64,000 nt of DNA from Streptomyces pluripotens. Lineage in GTDB: Bacteria; Actinomycetota; Actinomycetes; Streptomycetales; Streptomycetaceae. The notes beneath the pieces are model-generated. The model ran no database searches. It was given only the letters and a program-made list of their open reading frames with translations, and was not told where the DNA came from. The DNA lies in assembly GCF_000802245.2 (NCBI RefSeq), contig NZ_CP021080.1, positions 7,006,001 to 7,070,000 on the forward strand. Direction: 5' to 3'. A program made the translations under genes and the position numbers. Below, in pieces: positions 52,395 through 61,302 of this stretch (the first letter of the stretch is position 1; the number at the start of each line of letters is the position of its first letter).

Positions 52395-54524
52395 ATGAAG
52401 CGGACTTTTCGCACCACCGTGCTTACGGTGGGTGCGCTCATTGCCGCGTTCGGCCTCCAGGCCGGTCCGGCGCACGCCGACAGCACCACACCACGCATCG
52501 ACCTCAGAGTCCTGGTGGTGAGCGATGGTGGTCCGGCGACCGACGCCATAGCCGCGGAACTCGACACCGCGGGCACGCCGTACACCAAGGTTGACCTCAC
52601 GGCCCCCGGCCGGCCCACCATCGACGCCGCCTTCCTCGCGGACACCGTCGACGGCCGGCCCCGGGCCAGGTTTCAGGCCGTCGTCCTGCCCGACGACAAC
52701 CCGTTCGCGGCCGGGAGCAGCGAGATGGCCGCCCTCGACGACTACGAGCAGACGTACGCGATCCCGCAGGTCGACGCCTACACCTACGCCCGCCCTGAGG
52801 TCGGCCTGCAGTACGCGGCCTCCAGCGGCTACTCGGGCAGCCTCGACGGGGCGAAGGCCCAGGTGACGGCCGCCGGACTGGCCGGCCCCTTCGGCTATCT
52901 GGCCGGCCCGGTGCCGTTCGAAAACAACTCCAGCTCGGTGGACGAGAGTTACGGCTACCTCTCGGCGCCGGTCGCAGGAGCCGACTTCACCCCGTATGTG
53001 CAGGCACCCATCCCGGGTACGTCCGAGGAGGGCTCCCTGGTCGGCGAATACCGGCACGACGGGCGCCGCGAACTCGTCGTCACCTTCGTCTACAACCAAT
53101 ACCAGGAGCAGTTTCGACTGCTGGCCCGCGGCATCGTGGAGTGGATGACCGACGGTGTGCACCTCGGCGCTTCCCACAACTACTTCGCCGTGCACGTCGA
53201 CGACGTGCTCGCCGCCGACGACCGGTGGGACACCGAGCTCAACTGCACTCCCGGCGATGTCGACTGCACCAACGACGCGGGCACGCCGAGCCCGATCCGC
53301 ATGACGGCTGCGGACGTCGACTACGCCACCGCCTGGCAGAACAGCCACCGCTTCACCTTCGACCTGGTCTACAACGGCTCCGGCAGCGTGGACCAGCGTG
53401 AGGACAACAACGGCGTCGACCATCTCGCCGACAAACTCATCGCCGACCGCGACCAGTTCCGTTGGATCAACCACACCTTCACGCACGCCTTCCTCGGCTG
53501 CGAGCAGAACACCAGCGTGGTGCCGTGGACGTGCCAGACGAATGCCGACGGCAGCACCAAGTGGGTGGACGAGAACACGATCAACTACGAGATCGCTACC
53601 AACCGCGTCTGGGGCGAGAACGTCGGACTCCCCCTGGAAAGCAGCGAGTTGGTCACCGGTGAGCACTCTGGCCTACGGATCCTCCCGCAGCAGCCCGAGG
53701 ACAACCCCAACCTGGCGCCCGCCCTCGCCGCAGAAAACATCAAGTGGCTCGCCTCGGACAACTCGCGCGACCCCGAGCAGCGCCAGGTCGGCACCGCCAC
53801 CACGGTCGCCCGTTACCCGATGAACGTCTTCTACAACGCGGGCCGGACCGTCGAGGAAGTCGACGAGTACAACTGGCTCTACACCAGCCGTGCCCAGGGC
53901 GGCAGTGGCATCTGCGAGGACCACCCGGACACCACCACCTGTATGTCGACCCCGCTGGACACGAGTACCGGCTACACCGACTACATCGTGCCGCTGGAGA
54001 CCCGCATCGACCTCGGCCATGTGCTGTCCAACGACCCCAAACCGCACTTCATCCACCAGTCCAACCTCACCGAGGACCGCATCGCCTACCCGGTCCTCGA
54101 TGGCGTCCTCGACGGCTACGACGCCCTCTTCGCGGACAACACCCCGGTGGTGAACCTGCGGATGAAGGACATCGGTATCGAACTGCAGCGTCGCGCAGCC
54201 TGGAAGAACGCGCTGAACGCCGGGCAGATCACCGGGTACCGCATCGGCAACACGGTGACCGTCCAGGCGCCTGATGCGACCGCCGTCACCGCAACCCTGC
54301 CGACCGGCACCACCCTGGGGGGCGGCGCCTTCGGCGGCGCCTACGCAGGCGAGGTGTCCGGTTGGACCCCCTCCTCCGGTAGCCCGCTCGTCTTCACCCT
54401 GCCGGCGCCCACCTCCGTCCCCGCCTCCACCGCGGGCAGCACGACGAGGGCCACCCACCCGGCACCGCGCACCAAGGTCCCGACGGGCGTGACCAGGCAG
54501 GTCCCGTACTCCCCGGACAACTGA
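52395..54524 (+). CDS. Secreted Agd3-like (CE18) polysaccharide deacetylase
   Basis: A 709-residue exported protein with signal peptide RTTVLTVGALIAAFGLQAGP (cleavage near AHA-D). It has the layout of fungal Agd3, a CE18 deacetylase of galactosaminogalactan: an N-terminal region starting LRVLVVSDGGPATDAIAAEL and a beta-sandwich carbohydrate-binding part, then a catalytic barrel with NYFAVHVDDVLAADDRWD (metal-binding Asp), RWINHTFTHAFLGCEQN (His pair) and HFIHQSNLTEDRIAYPVLDG, and a C-terminal beta domain. Inferred reaction: removal of N-acetyl groups from a secreted GalNAc-type polymer. First gene of the cluster; a hairpin follows it. Confidence 0.82.
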   Translation: MKRTFRTTVLTVGALIAAFGLQAGPAHADSTTPRIDLRVLVVSDGGPATDAIAAELDTAGTPYTKVDLTAPGRPTIDAAFLADTVDGRPRARFQAVVLPDDNPFAAGSSEMAALDDYEQTYAIPQVDAYTYARPEVGLQYAASSGYSGSLDGAKAQVTAAGLAGPFGYLAGPVPFENNSSSVDESYGYLSAPVAGADFTPYVQAPIPGTSEEGSLVGEYRHDGRRELVVTFVYNQYQEQFRLLARGIVEWMTDGVHLGASHNYFAVHVDDVLAADDRWDTELNCTPGDVDCTNDAGTPSPIRMTAADVDYATAWQNSHRFTFDLVYNGSGSVDQREDNNGVDHLADKLIADRDQFRWINHTFTHAFLGCEQNTSVVPWTCQTNADGSTKWVDENTINYEIATNRVWGENVGLPLESSELVTGEHSGLRILPQQPEDNPNLAPALAAENIKWLASDNSRDPEQRQVGTATTVARYPMNVFYNAGRTVEEVDEYNWLYTSRAQGGSGICEDHPDTTTCMSTPLDTSTGYTDYIVPLETRIDLGHVLSNDPKPHFIHQSNLTEDRIAYPVLDGVLDGYDALFADNTPVVNLRMKDIGIELQRRAAWKNALNAGQITGYRIGNTVTVQAPDATAVTATLPTGTTLGGGAFGGAYAGEVSGWTPSSGSPLVFTLPAPTSVPASTAGSTTRATHPAPRTKVPTGVTRQVPYSPDN

Positions 54525-54545
54525 ACGGCGCACCGACCAGAGCTC

Positions 54546-54567
54546 CCGGCCGCCCATCGGCGGCCGG
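54546..54567. terminator. Hairpin between deacetylase and glycosyltransferase genes
   Basis: CCGGCCGCC-catc-GGCGGCCGG, a perfect 9-bp stem extended by a GCTC/GAGC pair with a bulge. It may end the deacetylase transcript or attenuate read-through into the rest of the cluster. Confidence 0.6.
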
Positions 54568-54610
54568 AGCCCGCACGACCACCCCACATCTCGGCCGTGG
54601 AGCACAATCG

Positions 54611-56119
54611 ATGCACGTTCACCCTGTGCGCCGCCCGGGCGCGGCGCACGTCACCCTGCTCACCGAAGGCACCTACCCGCACAGCCACGGAGGTGTCAGC
54701 GTCTGGTGCGACCAACTCGTCCAGGGCATGCCCGACCTCGACTTCGACGTCATCGCCGTCACCGGCACCGGGCGCGAACCCGTCGTATGGGAGCTGCCCT
54801 CCCATGTCCACGACGTGCTCTGCGTCCCCATGTGGGGCGCCCCGCCTGCCGGACGCCTCCCCCGGGGCCGCGCCCGCAACCGGCTCTCCGCCGCCTACGA
54901 ACGGTTCCTGACCTCGCTGCTCGACCCGCACGCCGAGGAGCACTTCGCACCCGCGCTCTACACCATGGCCCGGGCGGCCGTGGAGGGCACGCTGAGCGCG
55001 TTCCTGCGCGGTGACCGTGCCATCGCCATCCTGGCGGCGGTGTGGAACCGTCCCGGTCTCGCGGTCCGCGAGGCCCGGCCCACCCTGCACGACGCGGTCA
55101 CCGCCACCGCCCTGCTCGAACACGCCCTACGCCCGTTGGCCGCACCGCCACCCCGGTACGGCGTGGCACACGCCGTCAGCGGCGGCGTCGCCGTGCTGCC
55201 CGGCCTCGCAGGTGTGGAACGCTACGAGGTCCCGCTGCTGCTCACGGAGCACGGTGTCTACCTGCGCGAGCGCTACCTCGGTTACCGCACCGCCCCCTAC
55301 CGCTGGCCGGTCAAGGCCCTTGTGCTCGGCTTCTTCCGGCTGCTTGCCGAGGAGAGCTACCGCCGGGCCGCCCTGATCACCCCGGGCAACCGCTACAACC
55401 GACTCTGGGAGGAACAGGGCGGTGCCGATCCGCGGGCCATCCGCACCGTCTACAACGGGGTGGACCCCGCCGCCTTCCCGCCCGCCGGCCCCGAACCGGA
55501 CGAGCCCACGCTCAGCTGGGCGGGGCGGGTCGACCCCATCAAGGACTTGGAAACGCTGATCCGCGCCTTCTGCCTGGTTCGGGCCGAGTTGCCCGCCGCC
55601 CGGCTGCGGTTGTTCGGCGGTACACCCCGAGGGGGTGAGGTCTACCGGGAGCGCTGCGAGGCACTGGCCGCCGAGCTGGGGCACGCGGACGCCGTCACCT
55701 TCGAGGGACGCGTCGACGACATCAAGGACGCCTACGCGGCCGGGAACGTGGTGATGCTCTCCAGCATCAGCGAGGGCTTCCCGTTCACCCTCATCGAGGC
55801 CATGTCCTGCGGTCGGGCGACCGTCTCCACCGATGTGGGCGGCGTGCGCGAGGCCGTCGGCGACGCCGGTCTCGTGGTGCCGCCCCGCGACCCGGCCCGG
55901 ATGGCCGCTGCGGCCCTGGAACTGCTCGGCGACGTCGAGCGGCGCAGGGCCATGGGGGAGGCGGCCCGGCTGCGTGTGATCGACCGGTTCACGCTGTGTC
56001 AGACCATCGAAACCTTCCGCTCCGTGTACCTGGAACTGGCCATGCCCGCTTGGGCGTTGCCCGCAACCGTCGAGCCGGGTCAGGACCTCAGGATCGTCGC
56101 GGGGAGTCTGGCCGGATGA
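54611..56119 (+). CDS. PelF-type GT4 glycosyltransferase
   Basis: A 502-residue cytosolic family-4 glycosyltransferase. The opening HVTLLTEGTYPHSHGGVSVW, the LLLTEHGVYLRERYLGYRTA and ALITPGNRYNRLWEEQGGAD segments are characteristic of PelF, the Pel polysaccharide glycosyltransferase; the C-terminal Rossmann fold has LSWAGRVDPIKDLETLIRAF, VTFEGRVDDIKDAYAAGNVV and SSISEGFPFTLIEAMSCGRA (donor-binding E-x7-E region). PelF polymerises GalNAc/GlcNAc-containing chains. Its stop overlaps the ATG of the next gene, so the two are coupled. Confidence 0.9.
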   Translation: MHVHPVRRPGAAHVTLLTEGTYPHSHGGVSVWCDQLVQGMPDLDFDVIAVTGTGREPVVWELPSHVHDVLCVPMWGAPPAGRLPRGRARNRLSAAYERFLTSLLDPHAEEHFAPALYTMARAAVEGTLSAFLRGDRAIAILAAVWNRPGLAVREARPTLHDAVTATALLEHALRPLAAPPPRYGVAHAVSGGVAVLPGLAGVERYEVPLLLTEHGVYLRERYLGYRTAPYRWPVKALVLGFFRLLAEESYRRAALITPGNRYNRLWEEQGGADPRAIRTVYNGVDPAAFPPAGPEPDEPTLSWAGRVDPIKDLETLIRAFCLVRAELPAARLRLFGGTPRGGEVYRERCEALAAELGHADAVTFEGRVDDIKDAYAAGNVVMLSSISEGFPFTLIEAMSCGRATVSTDVGGVREAVGDAGLVVPPRDPARMAAAALELLGDVERRRAMGEAARLRVIDRFTLCQTIETFRSVYLELAMPAWALPATVEPGQDLRIVAGSLAG

Positions 56120-57507
56120 GTGGACCCATGGCGCTGGAACCGGGCGGCACCGAACACGACACGCTCACCCTGCGGCTCGCCGGAACACCCGCTCGCGATG
56201 ATGACACGACGACCCTGCGGCTGCCCGGACGCGGTGACAACGAGGCCCAGGTGAGCGCGCTCGCGGCCGAACTCGCCGACCGCGTCGGCCCGGCCGTCCA
56301 CCCGTACGAGGTGGCCGCCCTGCTGGAGGCCGAGGGCATGACCGCAGAGCAGATACGGGAACGGTACGGCCATCCGAACCTCTTCTCCCTGGCCACCGCG
56401 CTCTACGAGCAGGTGCCCCGGACCTTCCCGGAGCCCGTGGGTGGAGCCGACCCCTGGCGCCCGGACCACGTCCGCTGCCTGCTGCGCGGGGTGCTGTTCG
56501 CGCTTCCGGGGCTGGCGTACCTGCTCACCGCACCCCTGTGGCACCCAGGGCGGCACGCCGACGCGCTGATCCTGGCCGGGCTCGTCTCCTGGTCATGGGG
56601 CCAGGCGCTTGGTCACCGCGCCCACCTGCAGCTGGCGACCGGGCACCGGGAGGCCGCCCGTACTCTCCTCACCGGTGCGCCCCTGGGTGCGGCACTCGCC
56701 ACCGCCACCGCCGTCCCGCTGGCCGGCGGTGTCCTGGTCAGTCTGACGGCCGCAGCGCAGTCGGTGTACCTGGCGGCGGCGGGCGCCCTGCTCGTACTGG
56801 GCCGAGAACGGCTGCTGCTCGCCGCGCTCACCCCGCTGATCGCGGGCGCCGCCGTCCTGCCCTGGTGGGAGCCCGGCACCCTGCTGAGGGCCGGACCGCC
56901 GCTGCTTGCCTTGCTGGCTGTACTCATCGTGACCGGCCTCGCCCTGCGGGCCCGTCTCGCTGCACCGGCCGCACCCGACGGAAGCCGGCCCCCGCTGCTG
57001 CGGTCCCTGCCGTACGGGCTGTTCGGACTGGCCGCGGGCGTTCTGGTGCTACTGGAAGGGCGGCGGGAGCCCCATGCGGTGATCGTGCTGACGGTCAGTA
57101 TGGGACCTGCCGAATGGCTCCTGTACCGATATCGGGGCCTGTCCGTGGCCGCCCTGCGCGCAAGCGCCACCCCCGCTGGGTTCCTCCTGCGCTCGGCGGC
57201 CGTGCTAGGTCTGTGCCTGCTGGCCTACCTACTGACCCTGCTGCCCGCCGCATACGTCACCGGCGCCGCGCCGGCCGCGCTGCTCCTGCTCGCGGCCACC
57301 CTGTGGACGGCGCTGCTCCTCCAGGCCTTCGGAACCGCCTGGCCACCTGTCGTGATCTGTCTGGCCGCCGCGGGCGTGGCCGCCGCGGTCACGCTGCTCC
57401 ACCTGCCACCGGGCTCCGTCGTGCTGCCACTGTGCTGCGGCACTGCCGCCCTGTGCCTCGTGGCGTGCGTGCTGCGGTTTCTCGGCCGCCCCGCCCGGCA
57501 CGCCTGA
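56116..57507 (+). CDS. Polytopic membrane protein of the polysaccharide cluster
   Basis: A 463-residue protein: about 110 cytosolic residues (a short duplicated LTLRLAG/TTLRLPG motif, then AADLAD-like region VHPYEVAALLEAEGMTAEQI and HPNLFSLATALYEQVPRTFP) followed by roughly eleven to twelve hydrophobic helices (LLRGVLFALPGLAYLLTAPL to LCLVACVLRFLGRP). Position after pelF corresponds to pelG, the Wzx-like membrane partner, and the helix count fits a flippase or transporter, but I see no MATE/Wzx signature. Start ATG overlaps the pelF-type stop (ATGA). Role in moving or assembling the polymer is inferred. Confidence 0.8.
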   Translation: MSGPMALEPGGTEHDTLTLRLAGTPARDDDTTTLRLPGRGDNEAQVSALAAELADRVGPAVHPYEVAALLEAEGMTAEQIRERYGHPNLFSLATALYEQVPRTFPEPVGGADPWRPDHVRCLLRGVLFALPGLAYLLTAPLWHPGRHADALILAGLVSWSWGQALGHRAHLQLATGHREAARTLLTGAPLGAALATATAVPLAGGVLVSLTAAAQSVYLAAAGALLVLGRERLLLAALTPLIAGAAVLPWWEPGTLLRAGPPLLALLAVLIVTGLALRARLAAPAAPDGSRPPLLRSLPYGLFGLAAGVLVLLEGRREPHAVIVLTVSMGPAEWLLYRYRGLSVAALRASATPAGFLLRSAAVLGLCLLAYLLTLLPAAYVTGAAPAALLLLAATLWTALLLQAFGTAWPPVVICLAAAGVAAAVTLLHLPPGSVVLPLCCGTAALCLVACVLRFLGRPARHA

Positions 57508-57550
57508 TGCCGTTTCTGCTCTCATCCAACACACTGGAAGGAACTGTCTG

Positions 57551-58552
57551 TTGACCTCCGAACCGCTTGCCGCAGTCACCGGAGCCGAGGGTTTCATCGG
57601 ATCCCACCTCACCGAGGCCCTGGTCGCCTCCGGACACCGGGTCAAAGCCATGGCCCAGTACAACTCCTTCTCCTCCTACGGCTGGCTGGAGACCCTCTCC
57701 CCGGACGTCCTCGACCACGTGGAGATCGTCCTGGGAGACGTCCGCGATCCAGGATCCGTCCGTGGCCTGCTCGAAGGTGCCGACGTCGCCTACCATCTGG
57801 CCGCGCTGATCGCGATCCCGTACTCCTACCAAGCTCCGCACAGCTACGTGGAGACCAACGTCACCGGCACCCTCAATGTGCTGGAGGCGGTGCGCGCCCT
57901 CGGCACGCCGCGGCTCGTACACACCTCGACCAGCGAGACCTACGGCACCGCGCAGACCGTGCCCATCACCGAGGACCATCCCATCAACACCCAGTCCCCA
58001 TACGCTGCTTCGAAGGCCGGTGGGGACCGGCTGGCGGACAGCTACCACGCGAGTTTCGGTACGCCTGTCGCCACCATCAGGCCGTTCAACACCTTCGGGC
58101 CGCGCCAGTCGATGCGCGCCGTCATTCCCACCGTCATCGGGCAGGTCGCGGCGGGCGAGCGCACCATCACCCTCGGCGACCTCCGTCCCACCCGCGACTT
58201 CACCTTCGTCAAGGACACCGCGCAGGCGTTCCTCGCGGTCGGCACCGCTCCCGCCAGTCACGTCGTCGGCCACACCTTCAACGCCGGTACCGGCGGCGAG
58301 ATCTCGGTAGGGGACCTCGTCGCGCTGATCGGCAAGGTCATGGACTCGGCCCTGGACGTACGTGAGGACGCCGAGCGCATCCGGCCGGCCAACTCCGAGG
58401 TGATGCGGCTCGTAGCCGACGCCGGCCGGCTGGCCGAGGCCACCGGCTGGCAACCCGCACACACCCTGGAGCAGGGCCTCGCGCACACCGTGGAGTTCTT
58501 CCGCGATCCGGCCAACCTGGCCCGTTACAAGACCGGCATCTACAACATCTGA
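57551..58552 (+). CDS. NAD-dependent nucleotide-sugar 4,6-dehydratase/epimerase (LegB-like SDR)
   Basis: A 333-residue extended SDR. Cofactor motif GAEGFIGSHL, substrate-region HLAALIAIPYSYQAPHSYVE, catalytic Ser/Thr in VHTSTSETYGTA and the YxxxK in SPYAASKAGGD. The IPYSY and YNSF(S)SYGWL segments resemble LegB-type UDP-GlcNAc 4,6-dehydratases rather than GalE epimerases, so it may make a keto-deoxy or epimerised amino-sugar nucleotide. It starts with TTG at 57551 behind GGAAGGA, an unusual start. It provides a donor sugar for the cluster, by inference. Confidence 0.88.
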   Translation: MTSEPLAAVTGAEGFIGSHLTEALVASGHRVKAMAQYNSFSSYGWLETLSPDVLDHVEIVLGDVRDPGSVRGLLEGADVAYHLAALIAIPYSYQAPHSYVETNVTGTLNVLEAVRALGTPRLVHTSTSETYGTAQTVPITEDHPINTQSPYAASKAGGDRLADSYHASFGTPVATIRPFNTFGPRQSMRAVIPTVIGQVAAGERTITLGDLRPTRDFTFVKDTAQAFLAVGTAPASHVVGHTFNAGTGGEISVGDLVALIGKVMDSALDVREDAERIRPANSEVMRLVADAGRLAEATGWQPAHTLEQGLAHTVEFFRDPANLARYKTGIYNI

Positions 58553-58591
58553 CCCTCGGGCACGTCCCCCACTGAACGAAGGAGGAGCCTC

Positions 58592-59305
58592 ATGCACGCA
58601 GTGATTCTGGCGGGAGGCAAGGGCGTCCGGCTGCGGCCCTACACCACCGCACTGCCCAAGCCGCTGGTCCCCATCGGTGATCAGCACGCCATCCTGGAGA
58701 TCGTGCTGCGCCAGCTGTCGGCGGCCGGCTTCACCGGCTGCACCATTGCGATCGGCCACCTCGGCGGGATCATCCGCGCCTACGTCGGCGACGGCTCGCA
58801 ATGGGGCATGAACGTCGACTACGCCACCGAGGAGAGCCCGCTCGGCACCATGGGGCCACTGCTCAACCTGCGCGACCGGCTACCGGAGTCGTTCCTCGTC
58901 ATGAACGGCGACGTCCTCACCGACCTCGACTACGCCGACGTCCTGTGCCGGCACCAGGACTCGGGGGCGCCGCTGACCATCGCCACGTACGCCCGCAAGG
59001 TGCACATCGACTTCGGAGTTCTCACCACCGACGCCAGCAAGGTCGTCGCGTTCACCGAGAAGCCGAGTATGGACTACCGGGTCTCCATGGGGGTCTACGG
59101 CCTCAGCCGCGAGGCCCTGGACGCCTACACACCGGGGCTGCCGCTGGGCTTCGACGAACTCGTCCTCGACCTGCTGCGTTCCCACACCCCGCCGCACGCC
59201 TACGAATTCGAGGGCTACTGGCTGGACATCGGTCGACCCGACGACTACGACCGGGCCAACGCCGAGTTCACCACCCGCAAGTCCCTGCTGCTCAAGGGAG
59301 CCTGA
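58592..59305 (+). CDS. Sugar-1-phosphate nucleotidyltransferase
   Basis: A 237-residue nucleotidyltransferase that activates a sugar phosphate as a nucleotide sugar. The signature AVILAGGKGVRLRPYTTALP with KPLVPIGDQHAILEIVLRQL binds nucleotide and metal; NGDVLTDLDYADVL holds the catalytic Asp; YWLDIGRPDDYDRANAEF ends the domain. It lacks the left-handed beta-helix acetyltransferase domain of GlmU. Closest in style to GDP-mannose/HddC-like enzymes; base and sugar unknown. A GAAGGAGGAG ribosome site precedes the ATG. Confidence 0.92.
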   Translation: MHAVILAGGKGVRLRPYTTALPKPLVPIGDQHAILEIVLRQLSAAGFTGCTIAIGHLGGIIRAYVGDGSQWGMNVDYATEESPLGTMGPLLNLRDRLPESFLVMNGDVLTDLDYADVLCRHQDSGAPLTIATYARKVHIDFGVLTTDASKVVAFTEKPSMDYRVSMGVYGLSREALDAYTPGLPLGFDELVLDLLRSHTPPHAYEFEGYWLDIGRPDDYDRANAEFTTRKSLLLKGA

Positions 59306-59312
59306 GTACCGC

Positions 59313-60218
59313 ATGCGCATTCTTGTCCTGGGCGGCACCGGATACCTGGGCCGCCATGTGACCGAGGATCTGCGCGCCCTGCCGGGCGCGCAGATCCTCG
59401 CCGCCGGCCGCTCCCTCGCCGCGGGGTTCCGCGTCGACCTGGCCACTGACCGGCCGGAGGCACTCACGAAGACCCTCACGGCGGCTGCGCCCGACGTCGT
59501 GGTCAACTGCGCGGGTGCCACCGGTGGCAACCCCGTGACCCTGGCCGAGGTCAACGCCAGAGGCCCCGCCGTGCTGTGCGCCGCGCTGCGCGAGGCAGCG
59601 CCCACCGCACGCCTGGTGCACCTCGGCTCTGCTGCCGAGTACGGGCCCGGCACCCCGGACGTACCGGTCGCCGAGGCGGCACCGGCCTGTCCGGTCACGC
59701 CCTACGGCGCGACCAAGCTCGCGGGCACGGTCGCGGTGACCTCCGCCGCCCTGGACGCCGTGGTGCTCCGGGTCGGCAACCCGGTCGGTCCCGGCGCCCC
59801 CGCCGCGAACCTGCCCGGCCGGATGGCCTCCCTGCTCCGTTCGGCCGGTCCGGAGCCCGACGCGGTGCTGCAACTGGGGGACCTGTCCGCGTACCGTGAC
59901 TTCGTCGACGTACGCGACCTCGCCCGCGCGGTCGCCCTCACGGTGACGGCCCCGGGACACCTGCCGTCCGTACTCAACATCAGTGGCGGAACGGCCGTCG
60001 CCGTACGGGAGCTGGTGCACGGCCTGGCCCGCCGAGCCGGATTCCGGGGGAGGCTTCAGGAGTCCACGGGCGGCTCGGCCCGCTCTGCCCGGGTGTCGTG
60101 GCAGTGCTCCGACATCACTGCCGCCGAGCGCGCCCTGGGCTGGCGGCCCGAGCACGACCTGGACGACGCTCTCGACGCGCTGTGGGCGGTCACGGCACGG
60201 AGCGGGCGCCTGCCGTGA
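59313..60218 (+). CDS. NAD-dependent epimerase/reductase (SDR)
   Basis: A 301-residue extended SDR: cofactor motif LVLGGTGYLGRHV, VVNCAGATGGNPVTLAEVNA, the LVHLGSAAEYGPGTPDV segment with catalytic Ser and the YxxxK in TPYGATKLAGTV. The short length and segment order resemble 4-ketoreductases and epimerases acting after the dehydratase encoded two genes upstream. Only seven bases separate it from the nucleotidyltransferase stop, and it overlaps the next gene by GTGA. Confidence 0.9.
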   Translation: MRILVLGGTGYLGRHVTEDLRALPGAQILAAGRSLAAGFRVDLATDRPEALTKTLTAAAPDVVVNCAGATGGNPVTLAEVNARGPAVLCAALREAAPTARLVHLGSAAEYGPGTPDVPVAEAAPACPVTPYGATKLAGTVAVTSAALDAVVLRVGNPVGPGAPAANLPGRMASLLRSAGPEPDAVLQLGDLSAYRDFVDVRDLARAVALTVTAPGHLPSVLNISGGTAVAVRELVHGLARRAGFRGRLQESTGGSARSARVSWQCSDITAAERALGWRPEHDLDDALDALWAVTARSGRLP

Positions 60219-60877
60219 GCTTGCTGGTACCGCTGTACGTGCACCCGGCCGAGGATCCCGGAGCCTGGCACCGGCTGATCACGGCGGCGGCCCGCACCTA
60301 CGCGGTCGTCCTCAACCCGGCGAACGGCCCCGGCGTCGCTCCTGACCCCGCGTTCGCGGCGGCCGCCCGGGCGCTGCGCGCCGCCGGTGCCCGCCTACTC
60401 GGCTACGCCGACACCGACTACGGCGTCCGGGACCGGGCCGAGGTCGCTGAGGACGTGCGCCGCCATCAGGCCTGGTACGCGGTTGACGGCTGCTTCCTCG
60501 ACCGGGTCTGCGCCACCCCGGAAGGCTTGTCCGCCTGCCGCCGCCTGGTCCGGGACCTGCGGCGGCTCGGGGCGGGCTCGGTCGTCCTCAACCCCGGAGT
60601 CCACCCGGCGCCGGGTTACGCCCGCCTGGCTGACCTCACGGTCACCTTCGAGGGGCACTGGTCCACGTACGTCTCGGCGTTCACCCGGCCGGCCTGGACC
60701 GACCGCCTTCCGCCGGAGCGGTTCTGCCATCTGGTGTACGGCGTCCCCGAGGCCCTCGTCCCGCTCGCCGTGCGCACCACGCGCGAGCGGGGCGCGGCGG
60801 TGTGCGGTCCGGTCACGGGTGAGATGCCGAACCCCTGGGCGAAGCTGACCCCGGCACTGGCCGTGACGGGGGGATGA
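60215..60877 (+). CDS. Spherulin-4 / Sph3-like glycoside hydrolase (GH135)
   Basis: A 220-residue TIM-barrel hydrolase of the spherulation-specific family 4: LLVPLYVHPAEDPGAWHRLI, AVVLNPANGPGVAPDPAFAA, RLLGYADTDYGVRD, WYAVDGCFLDRVCATPEG and VVLNPGVHPAPGYARLADL. Fungal Sph3 (GH135) cleaves GalNAc-containing galactosaminogalactan and is needed for its production. Acidic residues in GYADTDYG and VDGCFLDRV are the expected catalytic ones. No signal peptide or membrane helix is visible, so unlike its fungal relative it should stay in the cytosol unless exported otherwise. GTG start overlaps the SDR stop. Confidence 0.87.
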   Translation: MSLLVPLYVHPAEDPGAWHRLITAAARTYAVVLNPANGPGVAPDPAFAAAARALRAAGARLLGYADTDYGVRDRAEVAEDVRRHQAWYAVDGCFLDRVCATPEGLSACRRLVRDLRRLGAGSVVLNPGVHPAPGYARLADLTVTFEGHWSTYVSAFTRPAWTDRLPPERFCHLVYGVPEALVPLAVRTTRERGAAVCGPVTGEMPNPWAKLTPALAVTGG

Positions 60878-61302
60878 CCGGGGTCAGCTGGGCCGCACGG
60901 GGTGGGCACCGTCGGCACGGCCGACGGTGCCCCGACTGTCGCGGTCAGTGAAGGAAGAGCGACGGCGTCGATCTGGGCCGTCCGGCGTCCGGCCGAACGC
61001 GTGGCCGCGGCGCGCCGGCCGATCGGCCCGTGTGCTGGCCGCCGGGCCGCGCAGCCGCGCCACGGTGGCGGCATGGCCCGGACCGTCCCGGCGAGCGCAG
61101 CAACCCGCTTCCGCCCCACTTCTGGCATGGACCAGTCAAATCTGTCACCCTTTCGGCAGTCGCGTCCCCGAACCCGCGAGGACACGACACGCTCCCCAGC
61201 ACGCCGATCGCGCAAGCCCCGTCCACGGCCCCTCCGGCGCACCGAGCCGGCCAGGTGGCCATCGAGCAGGCCGGAATCCCGGCCGCCGCAAAGGAGTAGC
61301 GT
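60878..61302. other. Intergenic region upstream of the M1 peptidase gene
   Basis: Apart from the terminator at 60904-60932 I see no gene. The stretch around 61128-61160 is less GC-rich and may hold the M1 gene promoter; AAAGGAG at 61290-61296 is its ribosome site. Confidence 0.45.
60904..60932. terminator. Hairpin terminator of the polysaccharide cluster
   Basis: GGGCACCGTCGGC-acg-GCCGACGGTGCCC, a perfect 13-bp stem 27 bases after the Sph3-like stop. Confidence 0.9.

Follow-up and report, generated by a model that had tools for sequence, protein, structure and literature searches.

Gene content of the operon

The window analysed here, a 64,000-nucleotide stretch of the Streptomyces pluripotens genome (7.01–7.07 Mb of the 7.35-Mb single contig, near one end), carries seven adjacent genes in which a putative Agd3-type (family CE18) polysaccharide deacetylase and a PelF-type glycosyltransferase are combined with three genes for a probable sugar-donor pathway. 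The genes are all on the + strand and open, at positions 52395–60877, and their coordinates and order confirm a preliminary description of this DNA. The intergenic gaps, from gene 1 to gene 7, are 86, −4, 43, 39, 7 and −4 bases; as had been described, four junctions (−4, 39, 7 and −4) overlap or are at most 40 bases apart. The features are:

52395–54524, + strand: CE18/Agd3-type polysaccharide deacetylase, 709 amino acids, signal-like N-terminus (by eye)
54611–56119, + strand: PelF-type GT4 glycosyltransferase, putative cytosolic polymerase (NF038011 and DUF3492 scores)
56116–57507, + strand: polytopic membrane protein (MEM), putative exporter or synthase partner (hydropathy)
57551–58552, + strand: LegB-like nucleoside diphosphate (NDP)-sugar 4,6-dehydratase, TTG start (TIGR04180 score, TSE...YxxxK)
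58592–59305, + strand: sugar-1-phosphate nucleotidyltransferase (NT) (Pfam NTP_transferase)
59313–60218, + strand: short-chain dehydrogenase/reductase (SDR), probable NDP-4-keto-6-deoxysugar reductase, epimerase also possible (Pfam Epimerase, PDB relatives)
60215–60877, + strand: Spherulin4/GH135-type endo-N-acetylgalactosaminidase homologue (Sph), without signal peptide (Pfam Spherulin4, Sph3 5c5g)
60904–60932, + strand: 13-bp perfect inverted repeat 3′ of the last gene, no T run

Conservation of the operon

The CE18 protein was used to fetch 80 named Streptomycetaceae loci, the best-scoring 80 of 157, which lean to close relatives; some are the same region fetched twice, and the distinct-row counts given below allow for such duplicates. 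All seven genes are present in order in 68 of the 80, with the membrane protein only partly matched in three (L062, L120 and L130), and the gene order is therefore not due to chance. Of the 12 incomplete loci, 11 reach a contig edge and the other, L125, is without PelF and the membrane protein. The flanks are less conserved: among the matches listed, pgm is matched in few loci and an M1 peptidase in some. On plasmids, a DNA search located the operon in four records of Streptomyces californicus, with about 78% identity across 84% of the query; the one record opened is linear.

Across 121 genomes of the genus, tabulated and counted by eye, LegB is present at at least 80% identity in 27, and the long-cluster CE18, intact or fragmented, accompanies it in 26 of these 27 (by eye, from two tables). 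The genome G094 has every operon gene except CE18 (L174:6001-12231); after this natural loss the polymer would be predicted to stay undeacetylated. Two genomes, G101 and G028, have the long-cluster CE18 without LegB, in both cases on short contigs. Of the 121 genomes, 57 have a CE18 of one type or another.

The deacetylase and the glycoside hydrolases

Residues D269 and D270 (CM1), H360 and H364 (CM2), R473 (CM3) and H551/H554 (CM4) are invariant in 95 of 95 aligned CE18 rows (92 distinct). They correspond to the catalytic motifs of CE18, namely the DD of CM1, HxxxH of CM2, Arg of CM3 and His of CM4 (PMC7229062). The motifs are also present in the Deinococcus homologues, and the CM3 Arg is missing in L158 alone. 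The window protein scores 12.5 bits against Pfam Agd3_CE, below the cut-off of 27.6, and 24 of 29 orthologues match this model at E values up to 1, the best being 9e-7. It aligns with proteins of Deinococcus and Thermus loci over 568–673 columns (tblastn E 3e-17 to 2e-28); the homologues in L169, L170 and L171 match it at E 2e-22 or better and themselves reach 48.1–51.6 bits against Agd3_CE (first L169 copy, L170 and L171; the second L169 copy scores 27.0). All four Deinococcus operon homologues scanned, the L202 homologue being left out, pass the CBM87 cut-off and three of the four pass that of Agd3_CE, whereas four Streptomycetaceae CE18 proteins in the same scan are below the cut-offs or give no match. 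The assignment as a CE18-type deacetylase, made in the preliminary description, is thus supported by the CM1–4 residues and by the Deinococcus homologues, although the window protein itself falls short in the profile check. A PDB sequence search with the protein and with its profile gave nothing relevant. The AlphaFold model (mean pLDDT 75.8, pTM 0.78) shows by eye an N-terminal part followed by an alpha/beta part in the centre and a C-terminal part rich in beta structure, with D269-D270, H360 and H551-H554 in strands, at or just past strand ends, as would be expected of a CE4-like barrel.

The last gene product, Sph, matches Pfam Spherulin4 with 119.6 bits, above the cut-off, and Sph3 (5c5g) at E 3.6e-15. 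D96 and E146, aligned with the catalytic Asp/Glu of Sph3, are present in 89 of 89 rows, the window protein among them, so that its earlier assignment as a GH135/Sph3-type protein holds. The residue after the catalytic Asp is Glu in Sph3 and either R (49 rows) or Q (40) in the operon proteins. The catalytic pair of Sph3 is printed as Asp196/Glu222 (PMC12054363). Spacing in the 5c5g alignment suggests Asp166 rather than Asp196. The P-Y-HP motif is preceded by five residues in 66 of 88 Sph orthologues and by 1–18 in the others that have it, three being without the motif; the protein is taken to lack a signal peptide because it begins almost at the first strand. The GH135 homologue of the operon is thus leaderless although the polymer is expected outside the cell; PMC12054363 describes the fungal Sph3 as bound to the membrane.

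A GH114 gene directly follows Sph in 51 of the 69 loci with Sph (one short), precedes it in L120 and is not found in 17. There is no GH114 in the window, and the single GH114 match of the S. pluripotens genome lies elsewhere. The GH114 protein of S. californicus has what looks by eye like a lipoprotein signal at its start.

PelF and the membrane protein

PelF scores 161.3 bits against NCBIfam NF038011 (cut-off 100) and 207 bits against Pfam DUF3492, in agreement with its previous assignment as a PelF-type GT4 enzyme. It is just 28–30% identical to two PelF copies that adjoin a true PelG. The membrane protein has about 10 hydrophobic segments by hydropathy and no match in Pfam or NCBIfam; its N-terminal part is homologous in the Deinococcus loci (E 1e-9 to 2e-14). 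It had been placed in the PelG position, an identity which we reject: hhalign gives a probability of 0.1% against PelG, the PelG side consisting of two sequences, and there is no PelG match among 29 orthologues. The one PelG match of the genome lies elsewhere and, with 24.2 bits, is below the cut-off of 29. PelA, PelD and PelE, noted as absent in the preliminary description, are indeed not among the Pfam or shown NCBIfam matches of the seven proteins, to which this search was confined.

The LegB, NT and SDR genes

LegB scores 450.3 bits against TIGR04180, just below the cut-off of 475, and is 49.5% identical to a Campylobacter jejuni protein annotated as LegB. TSE...YxxxK is found in 89 of 89 LegB orthologues (86 distinct) and matches the [ST]-acid/base-Yx3K signature of 4,6-dehydratases; TSE is also present in a Rhizobium LegB that adjoins LegC. 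In a published signature table, [ST]SE belongs to GDP-mannose dehydratase and [ST]DE to the dTDP/UDP-Glc and retaining UDP-GlcNAc enzymes, GalE is without the acid/base pair and GDP-GlcNAc has no row (PMC8987622 Table 1). The operon LegB therefore bears the single-Glu signature of GDP-mannose dehydratase, unlike the dTDP/UDP-Glc rows of that table. GDP-GlcNAc is the reported substrate of C. jejuni LegB (PMC7439481).

NT matches Pfam NTP_transferase with 132.6 bits, and its best NCBIfam model is that of mannose-1-phosphate guanylyltransferase (137 bits, cut-off 440). SDR matches Pfam Epimerase with 126.4 bits; its best NCBIfam model is GalE (60 bits, cut-off 262), and in the PDB it scores similarly against GalE-type enzymes (61.0 bits) and a GDP-6-deoxy-4-hexulose reductase of the Rmd type (2pk3, 57.3 bits). 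YxxxK is present in SDR and the acid/base pair is absent (SAA).

Based on these comparisons, the two SDR-fold proteins are probably a 4,6-dehydratase and a reductase, and the monomer is on that account more likely to be a 6-deoxyhexosamine than plain GalNAc. In the simplest reading NT, dehydratase and reductase would together yield an NDP-6-deoxyhexosamine, whose nucleotide and C4 configuration are presumed. The family assignments thus support the earlier proposal that two SDRs and a nucleotidyltransferase could make a dedicated donor.

Distribution of the LegB-NT-SDR block and further PelF loci

The block travels with PelF outside Streptomyces. Four Deinococcus plasmid loci were examined; three have PelF-MEM-LegB-NT-SDR-CE18, the fourth (L171) is without SDR between NT and CE18, and in three of the four the annotation lists endo-polygalactosaminidase genes nearby. 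All seven genes are also found in L157, a locus from the same class but a different family, in the order PelF-MEM-LegB-NT-SDR-Sph-CE18; L158 combines NT and SDR with a distant relative of LegB.

The S. pluripotens genome has three PelF loci, that of the window (cluster A) and two others. Cluster B (1.76 Mb, L031:6180-11371) consists of CE18-PelF-MEM beside pepA-like and cobS-like genes (named by eye), with no Sph or GH114 match and no LegB, NT or SDR in the L031 stretch. In seven longer cluster B stretches of other genomes (L049, L050, L162, L163 and L165–L167) Sph comes next and no LegB, NT or SDR is found; GH114 follows in L049, L165 and L167. Cluster C (4.90 Mb, L205:7565-12648), between DUF3152 and ThiF/rhodanese genes, consists of PelF-MEM-SDR-Sph without CE18, LegB or NT, and its four genes are also present in all four other genus genomes fetched (L210, L211, L213 and L214).

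As a separate observation, a Kocuria rosea plasmid (L203:5508-14576) carries a hypothetical protein (CE18 match), PelF, a hypothetical protein, Sph and GH114 between two transposase genes. The transposases have the same protein accession and are on opposite strands, as in a composite transposon.

PelF residues that vary with the block

PelF copies with the block comprised 97 from long clusters (94 distinct) and five others, including L171, making 102 (99 distinct). Those without it numbered 31, 27 from cluster B and four others. L158 (NT and SDR, no LegB orthologue) and the two Pel rows were left out of the counts; L182 gave no PelF, and for L190, where the match is split, the longer piece alone was used. 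Four well-filled columns separate the 102 copies from the 31:

Column 31: V with the block; T/R without, one gap
Column 205: H/Y/N/F with the block; D/E/S/T/L without
Column 259: G/A with the block; C/V without
Column 373: D/E with the block; R/K/S/P/Q without

The other columns that separate the two sets consist mainly of gaps in one of them. In a tree of 38 chosen PelF rows, built with the four columns removed, the Streptomyces A and B copies form one clade (100/100). The block needs three changes of state on this tree, where several long branches meet, and one clade uniting the block-bearing PelFs is rejected by the AU test (p 8e-7). Among 112 comparable labellings of nine clades the true one comes first, with four separating columns; the next have 3, 2, 2 and 2. 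Among held-out copies, L212 (with the block) fits at all four columns, but groups with the long clusters, while L207 and L208, where no block was found, fit at 31 and 259, are non-acidic at 373 and carry T and A, respectively, at 205. In five rows from cluster C the residue is L or I at 31, F, S or C at 205, G at 259 and D/E at 373.

As the four columns track the block, we read the donor specificity of PelF as changing with it, which is a correlation and not proof. The idea that an acid at 373 denotes guanine was rejected, as Glu is found there in the two Pel-type copies as well. The PelF residue equivalent to PimA Asp253 was judged by eye. That residue (PimA, PMC9883506) varies in the Deinococcus PelFs, and the idea was dropped on this count too.

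Relationship to described systems

Agd3 homologues have been reported in 45 bacterial species (Bamford et al. 2020, PMC7229062). The bacterial operons described there combine the CE18 gene with a cytosolic glycosyltransferase, a multi-spanning membrane protein and, very commonly, GH114, with spherulin-4 genes in some Actinobacteria, and were likened to the cluster for galactosaminogalactan (GAG). Because of that report the present operon is a member of a described kind, and the mixture of GAG-like and other parts in one operon is already noted there. The section of that paper on these operons says nothing of LegB, NT and SDR, of long versus short forms or of PelF variants. Added here are the LegB-NT-SDR block travelling with PelF in Streptomyces and Deinococcus, the GH114 pattern, two further PelF loci, the four PelF positions and the single-Glu signature of LegB. 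A literature search, which extended neither to subscription papers nor to Figure 8c and the supplements of Bamford et al., found no paper on the block with PelF or CE18, and nothing on target for a Streptomyces galactosamine or fucosamine polymer. Old reports of galactosamine-containing polysaccharides in Streptomyces walls, and of an endogalactosaminidase from S. griseus, are cited in PMC7229062, in passages that do not name the polymer genes.

The fungal GAG cluster (uge3, sph3, gtb3, ega3, agd3) shares CE18, GH135 and, with most relatives of the operon, GH114. It differs in having the integral Gtb3, where the operon has a GT4/PelF protein and a separate membrane protein, and the Uge3 epimerase, where the operon has LegB-NT-SDR. 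The roles of the fungal genes are in part taken from PMC12054363 and PMC7229062. Pel operons (Pseudomonas; the Gram-positive pelDEADAFG) likewise have a glycosyltransferase of the PelF family with a polytopic membrane protein after it, and differ in that the operon has neither PelG nor, among its seven proteins, PelA, PelD or PelE, and in the distance of its PelF from the two Pel-type copies. With the legionaminic acid donor pathway the operon shares a LegB-like dehydratase and a nucleotidyltransferase in one locus; the Rhizobium legionaminic locus has the aminotransferase LegC and NeuB/NeuC, and the operon has SDR instead.

Interpretation

Taken together, the locus is read as an Agd3-type exopolysaccharide operon with its own donor pathway, probably for a 6-deoxyhexosamine, a reading to which we give a probability of about 0.5. 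From the gene content and order, the catalytic residues, the co-travel and the residue correlation we infer a scheme for the reactions, nucleotide, sugar, export and biological role. NT would activate hexosamine-1-phosphate, probably as GDP-HexNAc; LegB would convert the activated hexosamine to its 4-keto-6-deoxy form; and reduction at C4 by SDR would yield an NDP-6-deoxyhexosamine of either the N-acetylfucosamine or the N-acetylquinovosamine type. PelF would polymerise this donor at the membrane, and the membrane protein would export the chain. The secreted CE18 enzyme would then strip part of the N-acetyl groups to leave a cationic adhesive polymer, with the leaderless Sph perhaps trimming nascent chains and the GH114 lipoprotein of most relatives trimming deacetylated chains outside the cell. 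The preliminary description, which predicted a partly deacetylated, cationic GalN/GalNAc-type polymer, was thus right in outline, much of which is in print, and its cationic deacetylated polymer is kept; it erred on PelG and probably fell short on the monomer, here revised to a likely 6-deoxyhexosamine.

More tentatively, the operon may make the 6-deoxy counterpart of Pel and GAG, a partly deacetylated alpha-linked polymer of N-acetyl-D-fucosamine (or quinovosamine) from a GDP-linked donor, with PelF residues 31, 205, 259 and 373 as the switch between that donor and UDP-GalNAc and with parallel lines for different cationic polymers in one genome. If true, soil Actinobacteria and Deinococcus would have a cationic polymer of new composition, and the four PelF positions could be mutated directly to probe the choice of donor. 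With three related loci in the same genome the switch becomes testable, the question being whether the LegB-NT-SDR genes change the monomer.

Several observations weigh against a 6-deoxyhexosamine pathway dedicated to this PelF. NT matches models for several nucleotides and reaches no cut-off. The four columns were found post hoc, and the sign test on three independent pairs gives p 0.25 at best. In five of the 102 block copies (L057, L078, L083, L111 and L123) the contig ends before the block, another (L171) is without SDR, and block absence beside 19 of the 31 other copies rests on stretches of 1.9–4.2 kb. The two held-out copies with cut context each carry a block-like residue among others that are not (T, Y, V, S in L206, at 205; T, K, V, E in L209, the acid at 373), and the two Pel-type copies have Glu at 373. 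The PelF match in L157 spans two TGA stops, the stretches L160, L161 and L168 have CE18 genes but no PelF, cluster C has SDR without adjoining LegB or NT, and LegB-NT-SDR occurs without the operon's PelF, as a stand-alone donor module, in other Actinomycetota (L173:8161-10586, L178:2902-5539).

A less likely alternative is a plain Pel/GAG-like polymer of partly deacetylated alpha-1,4-GalNAc, in which the SDRs are epimerases, NT raises the supply of UDP-HexNAc and nothing is 6-deoxy. The CE18, GH135 and GH114 families are characterised on GalNAc/GalN polymers (PMC7229062, PMC12054363) and the likening to the GAG cluster by Bamford et al. agrees with this, as do the top NCBIfam score of SDR and the composition of cluster C. 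It is opposed by the dehydratase Glu kept in every LegB and absent from GalE (PMC8987622 Table 1), by the sister set of cluster B in the same genome, which has none of the three sugar genes beside it, and by the PelF residues that change with the block.

It is improbable that the block makes a second sugar (a branch, cap or wall glycan) for a glycosyltransferase coded elsewhere, with PelF still polymerising GalNAc: its separation from the operon's PelF in L173 and L178 means that it can serve other glycans, and only one glycosyltransferase is recognised in the operon, but the block adjoins PelF in two phyla and the PelF columns track it. A nonulosonic (legionaminic-type) acid or teichoic-acid locus, suggested by the LegB likeness just below the family cut-off, is rejected as very improbable, since no aminotransferase, NeuB or NeuC is found among the seven proteins and the annotations of the Deinococcus and S. 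californicus loci name none next to the block, unlike in the Rhizobium LegB locus.

Inverted repeats

The 13-bp hairpin said to close the cluster exists (60904–60932), but has no T run behind it and is missing from the list of the terminator scan. The SDR coding sequence contains an inverted repeat at 59363–59400, perfect over 17 bp and with a loop of 4 bases.

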